Assembly (NCBI GenBank): GCA_016790285.1
Contig: JAEUPJ010000076.1
Coordinates: forward strand, 1 to 64,000
Length of the DNA: 64,000 bases
Source: Roseateles sp.
Lineage (GTDB): Bacteria; Pseudomonadota; Gammaproteobacteria; Burkholderiales; Burkholderiaceae_C
Direction: 5' to 3'
Part shown: piece by piece, positions 1-43,903 of the stretch
Layout of the letters: every line of letters starts with the position of its first letter
How positions within the stretch are numbered: position 1 is the stretch's first letter
Position numbers and translations under genes: made by a program
The notes under the pieces: generated by a model
The model's input: the letters and a program-made list of their open reading frames with translations, nothing else
Database searches by the model: none
Told to the model about the DNA's origin: nothing

Positions 1-3000
1 CCTGGATCTGGCCGGTGGTCAGCGCGCTGATCTGGGCGGTGGTGAGGCTGCCGACCTCGTCCGAGGTCAGGGACTGGATCTGGTCAGACGAGAGACCGCG
101 CAGCGCTGCCGTGGTGACCGAGCGCAGGTCGGCCGTCTCCATCTTGGAGAGCTGGTCGGTCGTCAGCGAGGCGAACTGGGCCGAGGACAGCGTGGCGAAC
201 TGGCTGGAGCCCAGGGCGTTGAGGCTGTCGGTGCCCAGGTTGCTGAGCTGGTCGGTGGTCAGCGACTGGATCTGGCCGGTGGTGAGCTTGTTGACCTGGT
301 CGGAGGCCAGGGCATTGAGGTCATCGGTGTTGAGCGTGCTGACCTGGGCGGTGGTGAGCGCCACGATCTGGCTGGAGCTCAGGGCGCGGAGCTGGTCGCT
401 GGTCAGGCCGTCGAGCTGGGTGCTGGTCAGGGCACGCAGCGAGGCGGTGGTCAGCGCACGCATGTCCGCGGCCTCGATGGCCGAGAGCTGGTCGGTGGAC
501 AGCGCGGCCGCCTGGGCCGAGGACAGCGCAGCGATCTGCGCGGAGCTCATGGCGGCCATGTCGGCAGCCTCCAGGCCCTTGACCTGCGCCGTGGAGAGCG
601 TGCTGATCTGGGCCGTGGACAGGCTCGACACCTCGTCGGAGGTGAGGGACTGGACCTGGTCGGAGGACAGGCCGCGCAGCGCGTTGGTGGTGACGGCACG
701 CAGGTCGGCCGTCTCCAGCTTGGCGAGCTGGTCGGTGGTGAGGGCGCCGAACTGGGTGGAGGACAGCGTCGCGAACTGCGACGAGCCCATCGCGTTGAGG
801 TTGTCGGTGGTGAGGCTGCTGAGCTGGGCGGTGGTGAGCGCCTGGACCTGCGAGGTGGACAGGCGGGCGATCTGGTCCGTGGTCAGCACGTTGAGGTCGT
901 CGGTGGTGAGCCCGATGACCTGCGGGTTGGTGGTCAGCGCGTTGAGCTGGGCGCTGGTGAGGGCACGCAGCTGGTCGCTGGTCAGGCCGTCGAGCTGGGC
1001 GCTGGACAGGGCGCGCAGCGCGGTGGTGGTGATGGCGCGGATGTCGCTGGCCTCGATGGCCGAGAGCTGGTCGGTGGACAGCGACGAGAGCTGGGCCGAG
1101 GAGAGCGTGGCGACCTGGGCGCTGGTGAGCGCGGCCATGTCGGCCGTCTCCAGGCCTTGCAGCTGGGTGGTGGAGAGGGCGGCGATCTGGCCGGTGGACA
1201 GGCCGCCGATCTCGTCGGACGTGAGGGACTGGACCTGGTCGGAGGACAGGCCACGCAGCGCGGCGGTGGTGACGGCGCGCAGGTCGGCCGTCTCCAGCTT
1301 GGAGAGCTGGTCGGTGGTGAGCGAGCCGAACTGGGCCGAGGACAGCGTGGCGAACTGGGCGGTGCCCAGGGCGTTGAGGCTGTCGGTGGCCAGGTTGCTC
1401 AACTGGTCTGTGGTCAGCGACTGGATCTGGCCGGTGGAGAGCTTGTTGAACTGGTCGGAGGCCAGGGCGTTGAGGTCGTCGGTGTTCAGCGTGCTGACCT
1501 GGGCGGTGGTGAGCGCCTGGATCTGGCCGGAGGTGAGGGCGCGCAGCTGGTCGCTGGTCAGGCCGTCGAGCTGGGTGCTGGACAGGGCGCGCAGCGTGGC
1601 GGTGGTGATGGCGCGGATGTCGCCGGCCTCGATGGCCGAGAGCTGGTCGGTGGACAGCGCGGCGGCCTGGGCGGAGGACAGCACGGCGACCTGGGCGGTG
1701 GTCAGGGCCACCATGTCGCCGGCCTCCAGGCCCTTGACCTGGGCCGTGGTCAACGCGCCGACCTGGGCGGTGGACAGCGAGCCGATCTCGTCGGAGGTGA
1801 GGGACTGGATCTGGTCGGAGGACAGGCCGCGCAGCGTGTTGGTGGTGACGGCGCGCAGGTCGGCCGTCTCCAGCTTGGAGAGCTGGTCGGTCGTCAGCGC
1901 GGCGAACTGGGTCGAGGACAGCGTGGCGAACTGGGCAGTGCCCAGGGCGTTGAGGCTGTCGGTGTTGAGGTTGCTGAGCTGGTTGGTCGTCAGCGCCGAA
2001 ACCTGGGTCGTCGTCAGCTTGTTGAACTGGTCCGACGCCAGGGCGTTGAGGTCATCGGTGTTCAGCGTGCTGACCTGGCTGGTCGTCAGCGCCACGATCT
2101 GGCTGGAGGTGAGGGCGCGGAGCTGGTCGCTGGTCAGGCCGTCGAGCTGGGTGCTGGACAGCGCACGCAGCGCGGCGGTGGTGATGGACTTGACGTCCGG
2201 CGCCTCGATGGCGGCGAGCTGGTCGGTCGAGAGCGAGGCCACCTGGGCGGAGCTCATGACGCCGATCTGGCCGGTGGTCAGGGCCACCATGTCACCGGTG
2301 GTCAGGCCCTGCATCTGGCCCGTGGTGAGCGTGCTGATCTGGCTGGTCGTGAGCGAGCCCACCTCGTCGGAGGTCAGGGACTGGATCTGGTCGGACGTCA
2401 GCCCACGCAGCGCTGCCGTGGTGACCGAGCGCAGGTCGGCCGTCTCCATCTTGGACAGCTGGTCGGTCGTGAGGGCGCCGAACTGGGTGGAGGAGAGCGT
2501 GGCGAACTGGGCCGAGCCCATCGCGTTGAGGTTGTCGGTGGTGAGGCTGCCGAGCTGGCCGGTGGTGAGCGCCTGGATCTGCGTGGTCGACAGCCGGGCG
2601 ATCTGCTCGGTCGTCAGCACGTTCAGGTCATCGGTGGTCAGGCCCACGACCTGCGGTGCCGTCGTCAGCGCGTTGAGCTGGGCGCTCGTGAGGGCGCGCA
2701 GCTGGTCGCTGGTCAGGCCGTCGATCTGGGCGCTGGACAGGGCACGCAGCGCGGTGGTCGTGAGCGCCTTGATGTCGGCCGCCTCGATGGCGGCGAGCTG
2801 GTCGGTGGACAGGGCCGCCACCTGGGCGGACGTCAGCACCGCGACCTGGGCGCTGGTGAGGGCGACCATGTCGCCGGTCGTCAGGCCCTGCACCTGGGTG
2901 CTGGTGAGCGCGCCGACCTGGGCGGTCGTGAGGCTGCCGACCTCGTCGGAGGTGAGCGACTGGATCTGGTCGGAGGACAGGCCGCGCAGTGCGGCGGTGG

Positions 3001-38893: not shown

Positions 38894-38901
38894 AAACAAA
38901 T

Positions 38902-38940
38902 AATGCGCCGAAACCCTCGCGGGTTCGGCGCATTTCCTTT
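38902..38940 (+). terminator. Rho-independent terminator of the tRNA cluster
   Basis: A long stem AATGCGCCGAA(A)CCC / GGGTTCGGCGCATT with a short CTCGC loop and one bulged A is followed by TTCCTTTT. It lies between convergent tRNA-Asp and the small secreted-protein gene, so it may serve both strands. Confidence 0.85.
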
Positions 38941-38953
38941 TGGGGCCTTTGAA

Positions 38954-39202
38954 TCAGGAAACGCCGCGCGTTGGCGCCGGGGCCGTGCCCGCCGCGTCGC
39001 TGCCGCCGCTGCCGTGATTCTGGGTTGTTGCCCCGCCGGTGCGAGCCGTGGGGGCGGAGCGAGGGGCCTCGTTCGTGCTGCGCTTGCCGCTGACCACCAA
39101 GCGCGCCAGCTTGACCACCTCACTGGCCTCGGCGGGCATGCCGCCCGCTGCCAGCCCCAGGGTGAGGCACACGCAAATCCAGGCTTTCATCGAACGCTGC
39201 AT
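38954..39202 (-). CDS. Small secreted protein of unknown function
   Basis: The product is 82 aa. MQRSMKAWICVCLTLGLAA begins a Sec signal peptide with probable cleavage after PAEA. The mature part starts SEVVKLARLVVSGKRS and ends in a Gly/Thr/Ala-rich tail. The start at 39202 is chosen because GGGAGG lies seven bases before it; the longer frame to 39370 has no such site. I recall short secreted proteins with a VVKLPR/VVKLARLVV(T/S)GKR core in related genera, all of unknown function. It is convergent with the tRNA cluster. Confidence 0.65.
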   Translation of the reverse strand: MQRSMKAWICVCLTLGLAAGGMPAEASEVVKLARLVVSGKRSTNEAPRSAPTARTGGATTQNHGSGGSDAAGTAPAPTRGVS

Positions 39203-39892
39203 CTTCACACCTCCCACCTCGCGGACAGCGAGGAACAGCATGAAGTGTTCAAGATGAGGAATCTTTCCACCAGCGTCGCGCGACGAACTGCGCTTTGCCT
39301 GGGATGAATTGCGATCGCGCTGCTCGAACCGCGGCGCTGCATCGGTCGAACACGGGCTGGGGCTGAACAACGCACTTCGACGACTCCTGACTTTGCATCC
39401 CCAACCGGTGGCTTCGGTCCTTCAGATAGGCAGTTCGTCTGCCCGAGCTGACCCGTTGACTTCCGGCCACTAGCCTTCCCCATTTGACGCGCGAAGGCCT
39501 TGTGCGAGCGGAAGGGGGGATATGTCGGGAGATTCGTTTCGCCATGCATTTGCGCTGGTAGCACTGCCGGATGCTGCAACGCCCAGCGAGCGTGGCGGAG
39601 GCGGTCAGCCTTGCGCCAACGTGAACGAGGAGGGTGGCCGGCTGACGGAGGTCCGGCAAGCGGGGCAAGGTGCTGCTTGGGCCGACTGACTGGCTTCGTC
39701 AGATCTACGGCCAGTGTGTCGCCAGAAGCCATTGCGGCAACGAGTTCGGAATCGCGTGGCGCTATTGGGTGCCAGAGGACAAACGGAATCAAAAGGGCAG
39801 GGGTGTGTGCCTGTGCAAGCGCTTCACCGACCAGCGGCGTTGACTTCGGTACGTTGCACCTGGCCTTTACCGCTAACCTTTGCGGCCAGAAA
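39203..39892. other. About 690 bp without a supported gene
   Basis: Base composition is less GC-biased than the surroundings, third-position preference is weak, and several overlapping ORFs in different frames (up to ~240 codons) look like non-genes: none has a ribosome site or recognisable motif. It lies between two tRNA loci and may be remnant DNA from an old insertion. No repeat of a tRNA 3' end was found by eye. Confidence 0.45.
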
Positions 39893-39925
39893 GACAAAAC
39901 CCAAGTGATTTTCGTCACTTGGGTT
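39893..39925 (-). terminator. Rho-independent terminator of tRNA-Ser
   Basis: Read on the minus strand, an 11-bp perfect stem AACCCAAGTGA / TCACTTGGGTT with a six-base loop runs into TTTGTC, seven bases after the tRNA CCA. Confidence 0.85.
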
Positions 39926-39931
39926 CATATG

Positions 39932-40034: not shown

Positions 40035-40063
40035 ATCATAGCGCAGGTTGAGCAGCCTGCCGA
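40035..40063 (-). promoter_or_regulatory. Possible promoter of tRNA-Ser
   Basis: On the minus strand TCGGCA (40063-40058), 17 bases, then TATGAT (40040-40035). It overlaps the 3' end of the RsaM-like gene, which points the same way. Confidence 0.45.
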
Positions 40064-40449
40064 GAAGCGTGTCGATGCATGACGGGCCTCGCGCGCAAGG
40101 CATCACGCCAGCCGAGCTGGTGAATGACGTTGTTCAGGTGCAGCATGCGCCGAGACCGCGCCAGTGTCTGGCCCTCGCCGTCGACCAACGCGACGTTGCA
40201 CAGGATGTTCATCGGATCGAAAAGGGCGACGATGTCCGGCTGGATCTCAGTCCATTCCCACGCGATCTGGATGGGACCGATGTTGTCCAGCGTTGCCCAG
40301 ACCTCCTGGCCGGACCTCAGGCCAGATCGTGCATCGTGCACCCTAACGCTGCTTCCCACTTGACGCAGTTCATGGGATGCCAATTCGAACTCGTTTACAG
40401 TCTTGACGACCGTCTCGCAGGCCATCAGCTGCCAAGCTGCCATCTGCAT
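40036..40449 (-). CDS. RsaM-like (DUF4902) quorum-sensing modulator
   Basis: The product is 137 aa. The core IGPIQIAWEWTEIQPDIV, then DPMNILCNVALVDGEGQTL, then LGWRDALRA matches my recollection of the RsaM/DUF4902 family. RsaM proteins are small regulators of acyl-homoserine-lactone quorum sensing in Burkholderia and Pseudomonas, usually encoded beside luxR/luxI genes. The divergent neighbour here is a LuxR-type gene, which supports the call. The start at 40449 has GGGAG six bases upstream; an in-frame ATG at 40491 adds 14 residues with a poorer site. No luxI lies in the window. Confidence 0.7.
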   Translation of the reverse strand: MQMAAWQLMACETVVKTVNEFELASHELRQVGSSVRVHDARSGLRSGQEVWATLDNIGPIQIAWEWTEIQPDIVALFDPMNILCNVALVDGEGQTLARSRRMLHLNNVIHQLGWRDALRARPVMHRHASRQAAQPAL

Positions 40450-40507
40450 TCGGATCTCCCGTCTTTTGGATGGGTTGCAGTTTGCGTTCATCCTGAGCCG
40501 ACTGCTC

Positions 40508-40523
40508 CTACCAACCCTAGTAG
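40508..40523. promoter_or_regulatory. lux-box-like inverted repeat, copy 1
   Basis: CTACCAACCCTAGTAG has CTAC...GTAG arms and the 16-bp span of this window's second copy at 41238. It lies in the divergent RsaM/LuxR promoter, ending three bases before the luxR ATG, so it overlaps the place of a ribosome site. Twelve of 16 bases match copy 2. Confidence 0.5.
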
Positions 40524-40526
40524 CGC

Positions 40527-41231
40527 ATGAACCTGCAGCGGTACGAACAAGTCAGTCAAGCGGCGGATTTCGCGTCTTTCAGGCAAGGCCTGATCGATTT
40601 CGCGAACGATCTGGATTTCGGCTTGATATCGGGCGTGCTGGCCGTTGAGCGGCGCGGGCCCGGCGCTAAGACAGAGTTCTTCTCCGTTGGCAATACGCCA
40701 GCAGAGTTCCTGGCGGCTCAGGTGAACCCGGAGAACGCCAAGCGCGACCCGGTTCATCGCCACGTGATGACCAACGCTGCTCCCTTGATTTATGACCAGC
40801 GCCTCTATGCGAACGCGGGGGCTGGCGACTTGTGGGAAATGCAGGCGCCGTTTGGCTATCGCACCGGTCTGGCCGTAAGCGTGCACATGCCGGGTTACCG
40901 ACGATTCCTTCTCGGCGTCGATCGGAACGAGGCATTGCCGAGCGATCCCATCAGGCTCAATCGAATGATTGCTGACCTGCAGTTGCTCGCCGTGCACGCT
41001 CAAGACGCGGCTGCGCGGTTGTTGGTGCCTTTGAAGGTGCCACGCTTGCCTCAGCGGCAGCTGGAGATCCTGCGCTTGACCATGGAGGGCAAGAGCGCAT
41101 GGGTGGTCGGTAGCCTGCTCGGGATCAGCGAGAACACAGTCAACTACCACCTCAAGCAGCTGTTCAAGCAGCTTGACGTGTCCAACAAGAATCACGCCGT
41201 CTTGAAGGCGATGGAGTTGGGGTTGTTGTGA
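40527..41231 (+). CDS. LuxR family regulator with autoinducer-binding domain (solo type)
   Basis: The product is 234 aa. The N-terminal ligand domain (about 15-150) is followed by the LuxR HTH (about 170-230: LPQRQLEILRLTMEGKSAWVVGSLLGISENTVNYHLKQLFKQLDVSNKNHAV). Against the TraR/LuxR pocket, Asp-Pro of RDPVHRH is kept. The usual Trp57 and Tyr61 appear as Phe and Gln (TPAEFLAAQ), and Trp85 appears as Tyr (PLIYDQ). Such changes are known in LuxR solos that sense non-AHL compounds. No luxI is nearby. The ATG has no clear ribosome site; an inverted repeat occupies that place. Confidence 0.88.
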   Translation: MNLQRYEQVSQAADFASFRQGLIDFANDLDFGLISGVLAVERRGPGAKTEFFSVGNTPAEFLAAQVNPENAKRDPVHRHVMTNAAPLIYDQRLYANAGAGDLWEMQAPFGYRTGLAVSVHMPGYRRFLLGVDRNEALPSDPIRLNRMIADLQLLAVHAQDAAARLLVPLKVPRLPQRQLEILRLTMEGKSAWVVGSLLGISENTVNYHLKQLFKQLDVSNKNHAVLKAMELGLL

Positions 41232-41237
41232 CACCCC

Positions 41238-41253
41238 CTACCAAGGTTTGTAG
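41238..41253. promoter_or_regulatory. lux-box-like inverted repeat, copy 2
   Basis: CTACCAAGGTTTGTAG, six bases after the luxR stop, shares CTACCAA and GTAG with copy 1 at 40508. It matches its own reverse complement at 12 of 16 positions. Its centre is 80 bases before the micro-ORF ATG, a fitting distance for an activator site at a promoter serving that ORF. Confidence 0.5.
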
Positions 41254-41325
41254 TTCCTCAAATTTGGTCGCTCATCCACACTGAACTCCATCGAATCACG
41301 GCCCTTCGGCTAGACGGAGTTGAAT

Positions 41326-41376
41326 ATGTGGAAGCTGTTTGCTGAGCTTTTTGGCCTGCCTTACACCGGCGGCTGA
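41326..41376 (+). CDS. Candidate 16-residue peptide gene
   Basis: ATG at 41326 to TGA at 41374-41376 encodes MWKLFAELFGLPYTGG. GGAG lies six bases before the ATG. The peptide is amphipathic and hydrophobic (W, L, F, L, F, L) and ends Gly-Gly. It lies between a lux-box-like repeat and a set of hairpins ending in a strong terminator, so it looks like its own transcription unit beside a LuxR gene without luxI. I recognise no family. It could be a signal peptide pheromone, a leader peptide or the coding part of a small RNA. Coding is unproven. Confidence 0.45.
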   Translation: MWKLFAELFGLPYTGG

Positions 41377-41385
41377 CTAGCCAAC

Positions 41386-41442
41386 GGAGGATCATCAGGT
41401 AAAGCGACACCTCCATCGCTTTCGTTCGGCGCCCCCCGAACG
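41386..41442 (+). ncRNA. Tandem hairpins downstream of the micro-ORF
   Basis: GGAGG (41386-41390) can pair with CCTCC (41410-41414). AAAGCG (41401-41406) pairs with CGCTTT (41417-41422), an alternative fold. CGTTCGG (41423-41429) pairs with CCGAACG (41436-41442). With the terminator at 41449 this reads as the folded 3' part of a short transcript, possibly a small RNA. Confidence 0.4.
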
Positions 41443-41448
41443 TCTTGT

Positions 41449-41490
41449 GCCCGCGACCGCCCTATCCAGGGCCCTCGCGGGCTTTTTTGT
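41449..41490 (+). terminator. Strong intrinsic terminator
   Basis: The stem GCCCGCGA / TCGCGGGC (8 bp, loop of 18 bases with its own CCCT/AGGG pairing) is followed by TTTTTTGTTTTT. It ends the luxR/micro-ORF transcript and insulates the decarboxylase gene. Confidence 0.88.
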
Positions 41491-41635
41491 TTTTGGCGGC
41501 TGCTTCACAGCCAGCCAAGCTGGGCGCCGAGATCGGCAGGTCCGGCATTCCCTGGCCCCAGGACACGGTGGCGACACGCTGCGGCCCTACACTTCGCGGC
41601 TTCGTTTTTTGATGCCCGCCCGCTGGAGGCCGCCC

Positions 41636-43903
41636 ATGATCCGTTTTCACTTTCCCATCGTCATCATCGATGAGGACTACCGCTCCGAGAACACCTCGGG
41701 CCTGGGCATCCGTGCGTTGGCGGAAGCCATCCAGAAGGAGGGCATGGAGGTGTTGGGGGTGACGAGCTACGGCGACCTCTCTCAGTTCGCCCAGCAGCAA
41801 AGCCGCGCCTCCGCCTTCATCCTGTCTATCGACGACGAGGAGTTCACCTCCGGCCCTGACCTGGATCCGGCCGTCTTGAACCTGCGCAAGTTCATCGAGG
41901 AGATCCGTTTCCGCAACCCGGACATCCCGATCTACGTGTACGGCGAGACCCGCACCAGCCAGCACTTGCCCAACGATGTGCTGCGCGAGCTCCACGGTTT
42001 CATTCACATGTTCGAGGACACGCCGGAGTTCGTGGCGCGCCACATCATCCGCGAAGCCAAGAGCTACCTCGACGGCCTGGCGCCGCCGTTCTTCAAGGCG
42101 CTGATGGACTACGCCCAGGACGGCTCCTACTCCTGGCACTGCCCTGGCCATTCCGGCGGTGTCGCGTTCCTGAAGAGCCCCGTCGGCCAGATGTTCCACC
42201 AGTTCTTTGGCGAGAACATGCTGCGTGCCGACGTGTGCAACGCCGTCGAGGAACTGGGCCAGTTGCTCGACCACACCGGGCCCGTGGCGGCTTCCGAGAA
42301 GAACGCCGCGCGCATCTTCAACGCCGACCATTGTTTCTTCGTCACCAACGGCACGTCGACGTCCAACAAGATGGTCTGGCACCACACGGTGGCGCCGGGC
42401 GACGTGGTCGTCATCGACCGCAACTGCCACAAGAGCAATCTGCACGCCATCATCATGTGCGGCGCGATTCCGGTGTTCCTGACGCCCACGCGCAACCACT
42501 ACGGCATCATCGGCCCCATCCCCGAGAGCGAGTTCAGCCCCGAGGCCATCCGGGCCAAGATTGCTGCCAACCCGCTGCTGGCCCATGTGGACCCTGCCAC
42601 CGTCAAGCCCGCCATCGTCACGCTGACGCAGAGCACCTATGACGGCGTGCTCTACAACACCGAGACGATCAAGAAGAAGCTCGACGGCTACATCCCGACG
42701 CTGCACTTCGACGAGGCCTGGCTGCCGCACGCCGCGTTCCACGACTTCTACGGCCAGTTCCATGCGATGGGCAAGAACCGCCCGCGCCCCAAGGAAGCCA
42801 TGGTCTACGCCACGCAGTCCACCCACAAGCTGCTCGCGGGCATCTCGCAGGCCTCGCAGGTGCTTGTGCAGGACTCGCAGAGCGTCAAGCTCGACAAGCA
42901 CCTCTTCAATGAGGCCTACCTGATGCACACCAGCACCAGCCCGCAGTACTCGATCATTGCGAGCTGTGACGTGGCTGCCGCGATGATGGAGCCTCCGGGC
43001 GGCACGGCGCTGGTGGAAGAGAGCATTCGCGAATCGCTGGACTTCCGCCGTGCCATGCGCAAGGTGGAGGGCGATTACGGCGACGACTGGTGGTTCAAGG
43101 TCTGGGGGCCGGACTTCCTGCGTGCCGAAGAGGGCAGCGAGCCGGTCTCGGCCGACTGGATGCTGCACGCCGACGAGGAATGGCATGGCTTCGGCGCGAT
43201 GGCCGAAGGCTTCAACATGCTGGACCCGATCAAGTCCACCATCATCACGCCCGGGCTGGACATGGAAGGCCGCTTCGCCGCGACCGGCATCCCGGCGTCG
43301 GTGGTGACCAAGTTCCTCGTCGAGCACGGCGTGGTGGTCGAGAAGACGGGCCTCTACTCGTTCTTCATCATGTTCACCATCGGCATCACCAAGGGCCGCT
43401 GGAACACGCTGCTGACCGCCCTGCAGCAGTTCAAGGACGACTACGACAAGAACGCGCCCCTGTGGCGCATCCTGCCGGAGTTCTGCGCCAAGTTCCCCAA
43501 GTACGAGCGCATGGGGCTGCGCGACCTCTGCCAGAGCATCCACCAAGCCTACGCGGAAGGCGATATCGCGCGGTTGACGACGGACATGTACCTGTCCAAC
43601 CTGCAGCCGGCCATGACGCCGACCGACGCCTACGCCCACATTGCGCAGCGCAAGACGGAGCGCGTGGGGATCGACGAGCTCGAGGGCCGCATCACCACCT
43701 CGCTGTTGACGCCGTATCCGCCCGGCATTCCGCTGCTCATCCCCGGCGAGCGCTTCAACAAGAAGATCGTCGACTACCTCAAGTTCACGCGCAGCTTCAA
43801 CGCCAAGTTCCCGGGCTTTGCGACCGACGTGCACGGCCTCGTGCACGAGATGGACGAGGAGACCGGGCGCGGCCACTACTACGTGGATTGCGTCAAGCAG
43901 TGA
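41636..43903 (+). CDS. Orn/Lys/Arg decarboxylase, large inducible type
   Basis: The product is 755 aa, the length of biodegradative arginine decarboxylase AdiA. An N-terminal receiver-like wing domain (about 1-130) is followed by the PLP fold, with the Schiff-base Lys in TQSTHKLLAGISQAS near residue 398, HCPGHSGGVAFLKSPVG near 168 and FDEAWLPHA for the cofactor Asp. A C-terminal domain follows. It decarboxylates a basic amino acid (arginine, lysine or ornithine) to a polyamine or diamine; the exact substrate is not readable. The ATG at 41636 follows GGAGG by six bases. It is alone between two terminators. Confidence 0.93.
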   Translation: MIRFHFPIVIIDEDYRSENTSGLGIRALAEAIQKEGMEVLGVTSYGDLSQFAQQQSRASAFILSIDDEEFTSGPDLDPAVLNLRKFIEEIRFRNPDIPIYVYGETRTSQHLPNDVLRELHGFIHMFEDTPEFVARHIIREAKSYLDGLAPPFFKALMDYAQDGSYSWHCPGHSGGVAFLKSPVGQMFHQFFGENMLRADVCNAVEELGQLLDHTGPVAASEKNAARIFNADHCFFVTNGTSTSNKMVWHHTVAPGDVVVIDRNCHKSNLHAIIMCGAIPVFLTPTRNHYGIIGPIPESEFSPEAIRAKIAANPLLAHVDPATVKPAIVTLTQSTYDGVLYNTETIKKKLDGYIPTLHFDEAWLPHAAFHDFYGQFHAMGKNRPRPKEAMVYATQSTHKLLAGISQASQVLVQDSQSVKLDKHLFNEAYLMHTSTSPQYSIIASCDVAAAMMEPPGGTALVEESIRESLDFRRAMRKVEGDYGDDWWFKVWGPDFLRAEEGSEPVSADWMLHADEEWHGFGAMAEGFNMLDPIKSTIITPGLDMEGRFAATGIPASVVTKFLVEHGVVVEKTGLYSFFIMFTIGITKGRWNTLLTALQQFKDDYDKNAPLWRILPEFCAKFPKYERMGLRDLCQSIHQAYAEGDIARLTTDMYLSNLQPAMTPTDAYAHIAQRKTERVGIDELEGRITTSLLTPYPPGIPLLIPGERFNKKIVDYLKFTRSFNAKFPGFATDVHGLVHEMDEETGRGHYYVDCVKQ

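Follow-up and report, generated by a model that had tools for sequence, protein, structure and literature searches.

LuxR receptors are textbook sensors of AHLs, small lipid-like signals, and peptide pheromones are textbook Gram-positive signals, among them the SHPs of streptococci, which end in GG. Double-glycine leader peptides (ComC, bacteriocins) are exported by C39 ABC transporters, and RNAIII of Staphylococcus aureus is quorum-controlled, encodes a small peptide and carries C-rich loops that target Shine-Dalgarno sequences. In Burkholderia, a luxR-rsaM-luxI arrangement is described in the available part of PMC4357305. LuxR solos of the PipR/OryR type lie beside peptidase and transport genes and are not AHL-responsive, and the tripeptide Ser-His-Ser elicits a response of PipR when its concentration is high, according to the available sections of PMC4981722.

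The locus described here lies in a 64,000-nt stretch of Roseateles DNA, hereafter the window, and its features are listed in Table 1. It resembles AHL-type LuxI/LuxR systems with rsaM in having a LuxR of the Autoind_bind type with a GerE domain, lux-box-like sites and an rsaM-like neighbour, but differs from them in that luxI was not found, the AHL head-group contacts Y56 and W60 are lost and a peptide gene lies under a lux box. With PipR/OryR solos it shares an apparently non-AHL LuxR homologue in a family found next to peptidase and transport genes; those solos are associated with a plant-derived signal and no cognate peptide gene is named in the sections of the source at hand, whereas nearly every receptor considered here has its own lux-box peptide gene. 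As in RRNPP systems, especially streptococcal Rgg-SHP, the receptor gene sits beside a tiny hydrophobic peptide gene (for RRNPP, the available part of PMC13220807), but unlike Rap, Rgg, NprR, PlcR and PrgX the receptor is a LuxR and not a TPR protein (the Pfam scan matched LuxR-type domains and no TPR model) and the host is Gram-negative. A literature search in an open library turned up no earlier account of a LuxR paired with a peptide gene of its own. Our preferred reading, which we consider likely, is peptide autoinduction, in which LuxR would work with a gene-encoded peptide partner that replaces LuxI-made AHL, with RsaM as a brake. Downstream of the locus lies an Orn/Lys/Arg decarboxylase gene on which the first-pass annotation was silent.

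Table 1 Features of the luxR-peptide locus and its flanks, in window coordinates.
Feature	Position	Strand	Remarks
rsaM-like gene	40036..40491	-	151 aa, divergent from luxR; putative brake
lux-box-like dyad 1, CTACCAACCCTAGTAG	40508..40523	+	between rsaM and luxR
luxR, LuxR-type regulator, predicted peptide receptor	40527..41231	+	234 aa
lux-box-like dyad 2, CTACCAAGGTTTGTAG	41238..41253	+	centre 80 nt upstream of peptide start codon
Possible 5' UTR hairpin, weak	41284..41321	+	over Shine-Dalgarno GGAG
Peptide gene, 16 codons, MWKLFAELFGLPYTGG	41326..41376	+	core LPYTGG
3' RNA hairpin 1	41401..41422	+	loop CACCUCCA
3' RNA hairpin 2	41423..41442	+	C-rich loop
Intrinsic terminator closing the peptide/RNA unit	41449..41488	+	
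Orn/Lys/Arg decarboxylase, next gene	41636..43903	same strand as unit	Pfam

The luxR product matches Autoind_bind (2.5e-16) and GerE (5.6e-13) in Pfam and, with no adjoining luxI, is a LuxR solo; its nearest named relative, in R. puraquae, is 95% identical. A search of a plasmid collection with the window gave no match. The first-pass annotation noted that luxI is absent from the window, and PF00765 matched nothing in the own genome either (0/1; assembly 95% complete), so that a luxI elsewhere paired with this luxR, named by that annotation as a refutation, was not found. PF00765 also had no match in 14 control genomes. Among 100 relatives it was matched in 25 genomes at E ≤0.001, with 19 over the cut-off, and strong matches (8 in 7 of the 100, at 8.6e-15 or better, the others being weak and partial) indicate that the search is able to detect luxI. 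Both autoinducer-binding LuxRs of the own genome belong to the peptide-paired LuxR family, the second (contig C75) also having a peptide ORF, MHVINLILEALGLPKLGG.

A LuxR search across 100 relatives, comprising 60 genomes of the same family (Sphaerotilaceae, Burkholderiales) and 40 of other families, gave matches at E <1e-50 in 28 of the 60 same-family genomes and in 0 of the 40 other-family genomes of the order, where the best match reached 5.4e-20. Scanning 84,980 genomes, each standing for one species, confirmed 261 relatives, and the best 80 of these 261 were taken together with the window as the 81 loci to which all counts of loci out of 81 refer. The rsaM-like gene was known from the first reading to diverge from luxR, and does so in 80/81 loci, the contig of the remaining one (L063) beginning within luxR. 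As to its proposed identity as DUF4902, the window protein matches PF16245 below threshold (E 0.003, 17.9 bits, cut-off 25); PF16245 was matched at E ≤0.001 in 5 of 8 aligned rsaM homologues, the window protein being outside those five, and the best PDB profile match of the rsaM-like protein was BCAM1869 (4o2h, E 0.025). A short peptide gene, chosen for each locus by eye from ORF lists, adjoins luxR in 80/81 loci, which establishes the conservation beyond strain level on which the first-pass annotation had staked its proposal; the sole locus without one, L076, is on a contig that stops 37 nt past luxR. Judged by sequence, the system is far larger than the window and is shared by Roseateles and relatives.

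A LuxR tree of 80 rows, inferred with pocket columns removed by a quick method that flagged several long branches, resolved two clades, one of 32 and one of 48 rows, with full SH-aLRT support for the split. In the smaller clade the peptides are leaderless and 9–24 residues long (e.g. MWKLFAELFGLPYTGG in the window and MWDIIAEILGFPRTGGL in Rubrivivax); the larger one comprises 47 loci with precursors of 42–73 residues and, in addition, L114, which has a leaderless 20-residue peptide and no exporter. All 47 long precursors contain a double-glycine motif, and of these loci 45 carry HlyD and 44 a C39-ABC gene downstream (Pfam); the contig of L082 stops within HlyD, and L091 and L111 have neither HlyD nor C39-ABC in the flank. 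These relatives are thus like C39-exported peptides, but their putative receptor is a LuxR inside the cell and not a histidine kinase, and the window peptide is leaderless. The HlyD/C39 exporter pair was found in 0/33 short-peptide loci (with one marginal 44-aa HlyD match, in L059), the window locus has no exporter gene beside it, and with neither a GG leader nor an adjacent C39-ABC exporter the window peptide falls outside the C39-exported class. Exact repeats of 4–8 residues are present in 24/47 precursors (e.g. APKGTW twice, LPKGTW three times), and L094, L102 and L105 have two non-identical repeat copies each. A TAP-like alpha/beta hydrolase lies beside 48/81 loci, accompanied where inspected by an ABC ATPase and an ABC-2 permease. 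The own genome has the hydrolase, ATPase and permease on contig C25, unlinked to the window locus, and the TAP-like hydrolase was found in 13/13 genus genomes searched and in 0/8 from other families.

The micro-ORF that the first-pass annotation credited with a good ribosome site is indeed preceded by GGAG, whose last base lies 6 nt upstream of the ATG, and is present in 15/15 Roseateles/Pelomonas orthologues. Across these the mean pairwise difference at codon positions 1, 2 and 3 is 0.36, 0.14 and 0.53. Seven sister pairs give a pN/pS of 0.16 and the full set of pairs one of 0.36, compared with 0.97–3.6 in shifted frames; for the C-terminus of luxR the value is 0.13. Permutation at third positions gave p = 1.5e-4 with a statistic that ignores relatedness. 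The micro-ORF is under coding selection. Aligned with the cores of relatives (LPRTGGW, APKGTW, LPRGGW), the LPYTGG of the window is the same core minus the leader.

The lux-box-like repeat reported 3' of luxR was recovered as dyad 2, and CTAC-N8-GTAG has exactly two sites in the 64 kb (0.03 expected; two reached in 0/100 shuffles). Using a 20-bp criterion (NNCT-N12-AGNN, ≥5 pairs), a dyad centred −98 to −68 from the start codon was found for 79/81 peptides (here those of 80 loci and the second copy in the own genome), compared with a background of 749/20,000 random 50-nt stretches, and a dyad within 150 nt upstream of luxR was found in 53/81 loci (background 697/5000). The expectation that both 16-bp repeats would be conserved is thus borne out for the downstream repeat and is less general for the upstream one. 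Both dyads read CTAC...GTAG in Roseateles and CTGTAA...CAG in much of the GG clade. Two Rubrivivax loci, L064 and L069, have the peptide gene on the opposite strand, yet with its own box retained. An automatic test for a motif ORF plus box 3' of luxR, with a motif set after the peptides had been viewed, was positive in 69/81 loci versus 2/2922 random stretches of the same loci. A further lux-box match (G000:C59:24698), which by reading overlaps the 3' end of an apparent tRNA gene, was taken as chance, and no wider regulon was found. A sigma-70 scan detected no promoter, as is unsurprising for an activator-dependent one. The position and conservation of the downstream box suggest that LuxR would bind there, ~80 nt ahead of the peptide gene, and switch that gene on.

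Residues Y56, W60 and D73 (LasR numbering) are taken here to be the AHL contacts. The window LuxR has T57 in place of Y56 and F61 in place of W60, and among 82 peptide-family LuxRs Y56 is kept in 0, W60 in 2 and D73 in 81, while position 129 is Gly in all 82. LuxRs at LuxI loci of the order (L031–L037, two of which are weak or partial matches) keep Y56, W60, Y64 and D73 in 7/7 cases, and those of L030 retain Y56 and W60. The LuxR of L029, a locus outside the peptide search, has Leu and Met at Y56/W60, and contact loss alone therefore does not imply a peptide ligand.

Covariation between receptor and peptide core was assessed with a list of pocket residues fixed before the test, residue 74 then being dropped. 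Cores were set by hand in seven loci (L061, L067, L080, L083, L098, L113 and L118), and L063, with its partial LuxR, was left out of the Mantel and column tests, the permutations and the contrast tree and retained in the residue counts and the Trp/Phe51 tally. In Mantel tests across 80 loci, the core tracks the ligand domain once the DNA-binding domain is controlled for (partial r 0.36, 0/2000 permutations), and the reverse comparison, core versus DNA-binding domain given the ligand domain, gives −0.15. By column, covariation of pocket and core goes beyond LuxR phylogeny: the mean partial r is 0.146 for 19 variable pocket columns versus 0.013 for 113 others (80 loci, p = 2e-5), with p = 3.5e-5 after dereplication at 80% (44 loci) and 0.188 versus 0.009 in the GG-type loci (n = 47, p = 1.7e-4). 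In the 33 short-peptide loci, the window's kind, the values of 0.017 versus 0.002 are not significant (p = 0.35). Permutation gave 0/2000 both for all loci and for the GG-type, and p = 0.22 and 0.48 for the short-peptide loci. Within the GG-type, pocket enrichment is 0.179 for the core (0/1000 permutations), 0.034 for the leader control (p = 0.038), the leader being a closer match to the LuxR phylogeny than the core, and 0.073 for the 5' UTR control (0/1000 permutations), so that part of the covariation signal is phylogenetic. The core covariation in GG-type loci lies well above the phylogenetic inflation seen in the controls.

At single positions, Phe51 accompanies 50/51 Trp cores and 3/30 other cores, a contrast for which the Fisher p ignores relatedness and to which L048, L056, L059 and the window are the exceptions, and loss of Trp goes with Met39/Val51 in both clades (L064/L069; L083/L093/L098). 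Independent Trp/non-Trp contrasts numbered 2 on well-supported branches and 8 on the best tree; on the 2 supported ones Phe51 moved the same way 1.6 and the opposite way 0.0 times on average, and two supported contrasts being too few for a sign test, the Trp/Phe51 pairing was not established by independent contrasts. The peptide is probably LuxR's own ligand as well as its output, a role that goes beyond the first-pass proposal. Peptide binding by LuxR is strongly suggested by the pocket evidence at the level of the family, and kinship extends the suggestion, in weaker form, to the clade of the window.

Conservation, coding selection, synteny, lux-box geometry, residue losses and covariation are the observations on which the peptide autoinduction model builds. 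Given the lost AHL contacts and the pocket-core covariation, the proline-containing C-terminal core would enter the former AHL pocket of LuxR, and its binding would set LuxR activity and close the loop. The divergent RsaM, with the second lux box beside it, may act as a brake as known RsaM proteins do. Gene content in the GG clade, with a leader peptide beside an HlyD/C39-ABC exporter, points to a secreted signal, and in the window's clade the leaderless peptide may be exported by another route or act inside the cell.

The last of these options can be taken further: the peptide may be purely intracellular, a LuxR co-factor or anti-activator serving as a timer or feedback element, at least in the window's leaderless clade. 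We consider this possible and on balance unlikely. It would account for the lack of both a leader and an adjoining HlyD/C39 exporter in 33/33 short-peptide loci and accords with C39 matches of the own genome that lie on other contigs than the window, but dedicated export genes accompany the same architecture in the sister clade, and the short hydrophobic GG-ending peptides of streptococci (SHP family) are secreted pheromones. An intracellular peptide is itself a variant of peptide autoinduction and is compatible with the ligand claim.

Clearly less probable is a role for the peptide purely as output, with LuxR sensing an outside or other small molecule and turning on a bacteriocin-like or otherwise secreted peptide. 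The combination of a double-glycine leader with C39-ABC/HlyD export is usual for bacteriocins, but the cores here are of ~5–8 residues and often in tandem exact copies, the 33 short forms have no exporter, and the few loci with ORFs listed (nine proteins scanned) showed no recognisable gene for modification or immunity. LuxR solos are described as detecting foreign signals in the available part of PMC10134790, and the 5' UTR control also has some pocket enrichment; against an output-only peptide stand the loss of AHL contacts in these LuxRs and a pocket that covaries with the core rather than the leader.

Peptide autoinduction may have a further component in Roseateles, where three hairpins follow the micro-ORF. 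The hairpins and strong terminator of the first-pass annotation hold up, RNA 41232–41640 folding better than 100/100 shuffles (z −3.24). The 42-nt core formed by hairpins 1 and 2 is identical to that of the window in 9/15 orthologues (window included), with one mismatch in 3, five in L047, and greater divergence in L043 (an indel) and L048. An RNA model built on 14 of the 15 orthologues (L048 excluded; mean column identity 90%, above ORF conservation) matches 15/20 genus genomes, the same ones in which this luxR occurs, with strong matches in 14 and a weak one in G017 (1.3e-4); weak matches away from this luxR, in G076 (2.5e-4) and G019:C20 (5.1e-4), were treated as chance. None of the 39 loci given to the model exceeded 22 bits outside the Roseateles orthologue group, and Rfam at E ≤5 returned no convincing family, only a CRISPR-repeat model at E 2.2. 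Covariation support for the 3' RNA is slight (term −0.27) because the sequence hardly varies. The weak 5' UTR hairpin has 11 pairs in 10 sequences, 2 with compensatory change, and a covariation term of +0.13; part of it may sit upstream of the transcription start.

The loop CACCUCCA of hairpin 1 is, on our reading, similar to the 16S anti-Shine-Dalgarno sequence, and pairing with ribosome binding sites is therefore plausible. In Roseateles/Pelomonas the 3' RNA, through its two C-rich loops, could thus provide a second output by base-pairing to Shine-Dalgarno sites. The layout is like that of RNAIII, with a small peptide ORF and C-rich loops on one unit, but sequence and regulator are unrelated and the pairing is here predicted from the loops. 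The first-pass suggestion that LuxR drives a peptide or a small RNA gains support for both products in Roseateles, where an ORF under coding selection and a conserved 3' RNA at one locus make a candidate dual-function RNA. That the 3' RNA alone matters in Roseateles, the ORF being incidental, is very unlikely: the RNA is the better conserved of the two and is tied to this luxR in 15/20 genus genomes, but the ORF has its pN/pS of 0.16 in sister pairs, and peptide homologues occur where the RNA model gives ≤22 bits (24 of the 39 loci, outside the orthologue group). An attenuator formed by ORF and hairpins for the Orn/Lys/Arg decarboxylase is scarcely credible and was rejected, since this gene, although next on the same strand in the window with its start ~150 nt past the terminator, follows the unit directly in only 3/15 Roseateles orthologues, an opposite-strand Band_7 gene intervening in the other 12, and peptide and box recur in other genera with different neighbours.

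Taken more broadly, and with somewhat less confidence than we place in peptide autoinduction itself, the balance tips towards a whole class of quorum sensing in Gram-negative bacteria where LuxR would have had its AHL pocket re-purposed for ribosomal peptide pheromones, with two lineages (leaderless and double-glycine-leader), a ~hexapeptide core diversified in lock-and-key fashion and, in Roseateles, an added dual-function RNA of RNAIII-like layout. Peptide-based communication via LuxR would be unusual for such bacteria. If true, a LuxR whose own peptide is gene-encoded and driven by a lux box would bring AHL receptors and peptide pheromones together, and would provide a testable synthetic peptide for every strain (e.g. 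APKGTW, LPRGGW), and receptor-core covariation might serve as a specificity code in the engineering of communication channels. It would also explain what many LuxR solos in this Burkholderiales family sense.

A TAP-like alpha/beta hydrolase gene adjoins 48 of the 81 luxR-peptide loci compared (the window and the best 80 of 261 relatives), and in L078 and L153 the hydrolase is accompanied by an ABC ATPase and an ABC-2 permease. The window's genome carries genes for the hydrolase, the ABC ATPase and the ABC-2 permease, but these are unlinked to the luxR-peptide locus. The 113-aa ORF that follows its second luxR-peptide unit (L119) had no match in a Pfam search, and reading frames resembling it, as judged by eye, come after the peptide at three further loci (L018, L019 and L025).

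Coordinates of neighbouring features
Feature	Location	Strand	Context
Interval of about 1 kb	window 38894-39931		between tRNA-Asp and tRNA-Ser genes
113-aa ORF	G000:C75 (L119) 2003-2344	-	3' of second luxR-peptide unit
TAP-like alpha/beta hydrolase, ABC ATPase, ABC-2 permease	L078 725-4244		
TAP-like alpha/beta hydrolase, ABC ATPase, ABC-2 permease	L153 4841-8207		

The LuxR of locus L114 belongs to the double-glycine clade; its peptide, situated 124 nt after luxR, is a leaderless 20-mer (...LPRVGGG), and no exporter was found in the flank of this locus. In Rubrivivax benzoatilyticus and R. gelatinosus (L064, L069), the peptide gene lies 3' of luxR in the opposite orientation to it and keeps its own lux box. 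In Aquincola tertiaricarbonis (L079), two tiny ORFs occur in succession about 205-320 nt after luxR; because both end in FPRVGF, their sequences suggest that the peptide gene has been duplicated.
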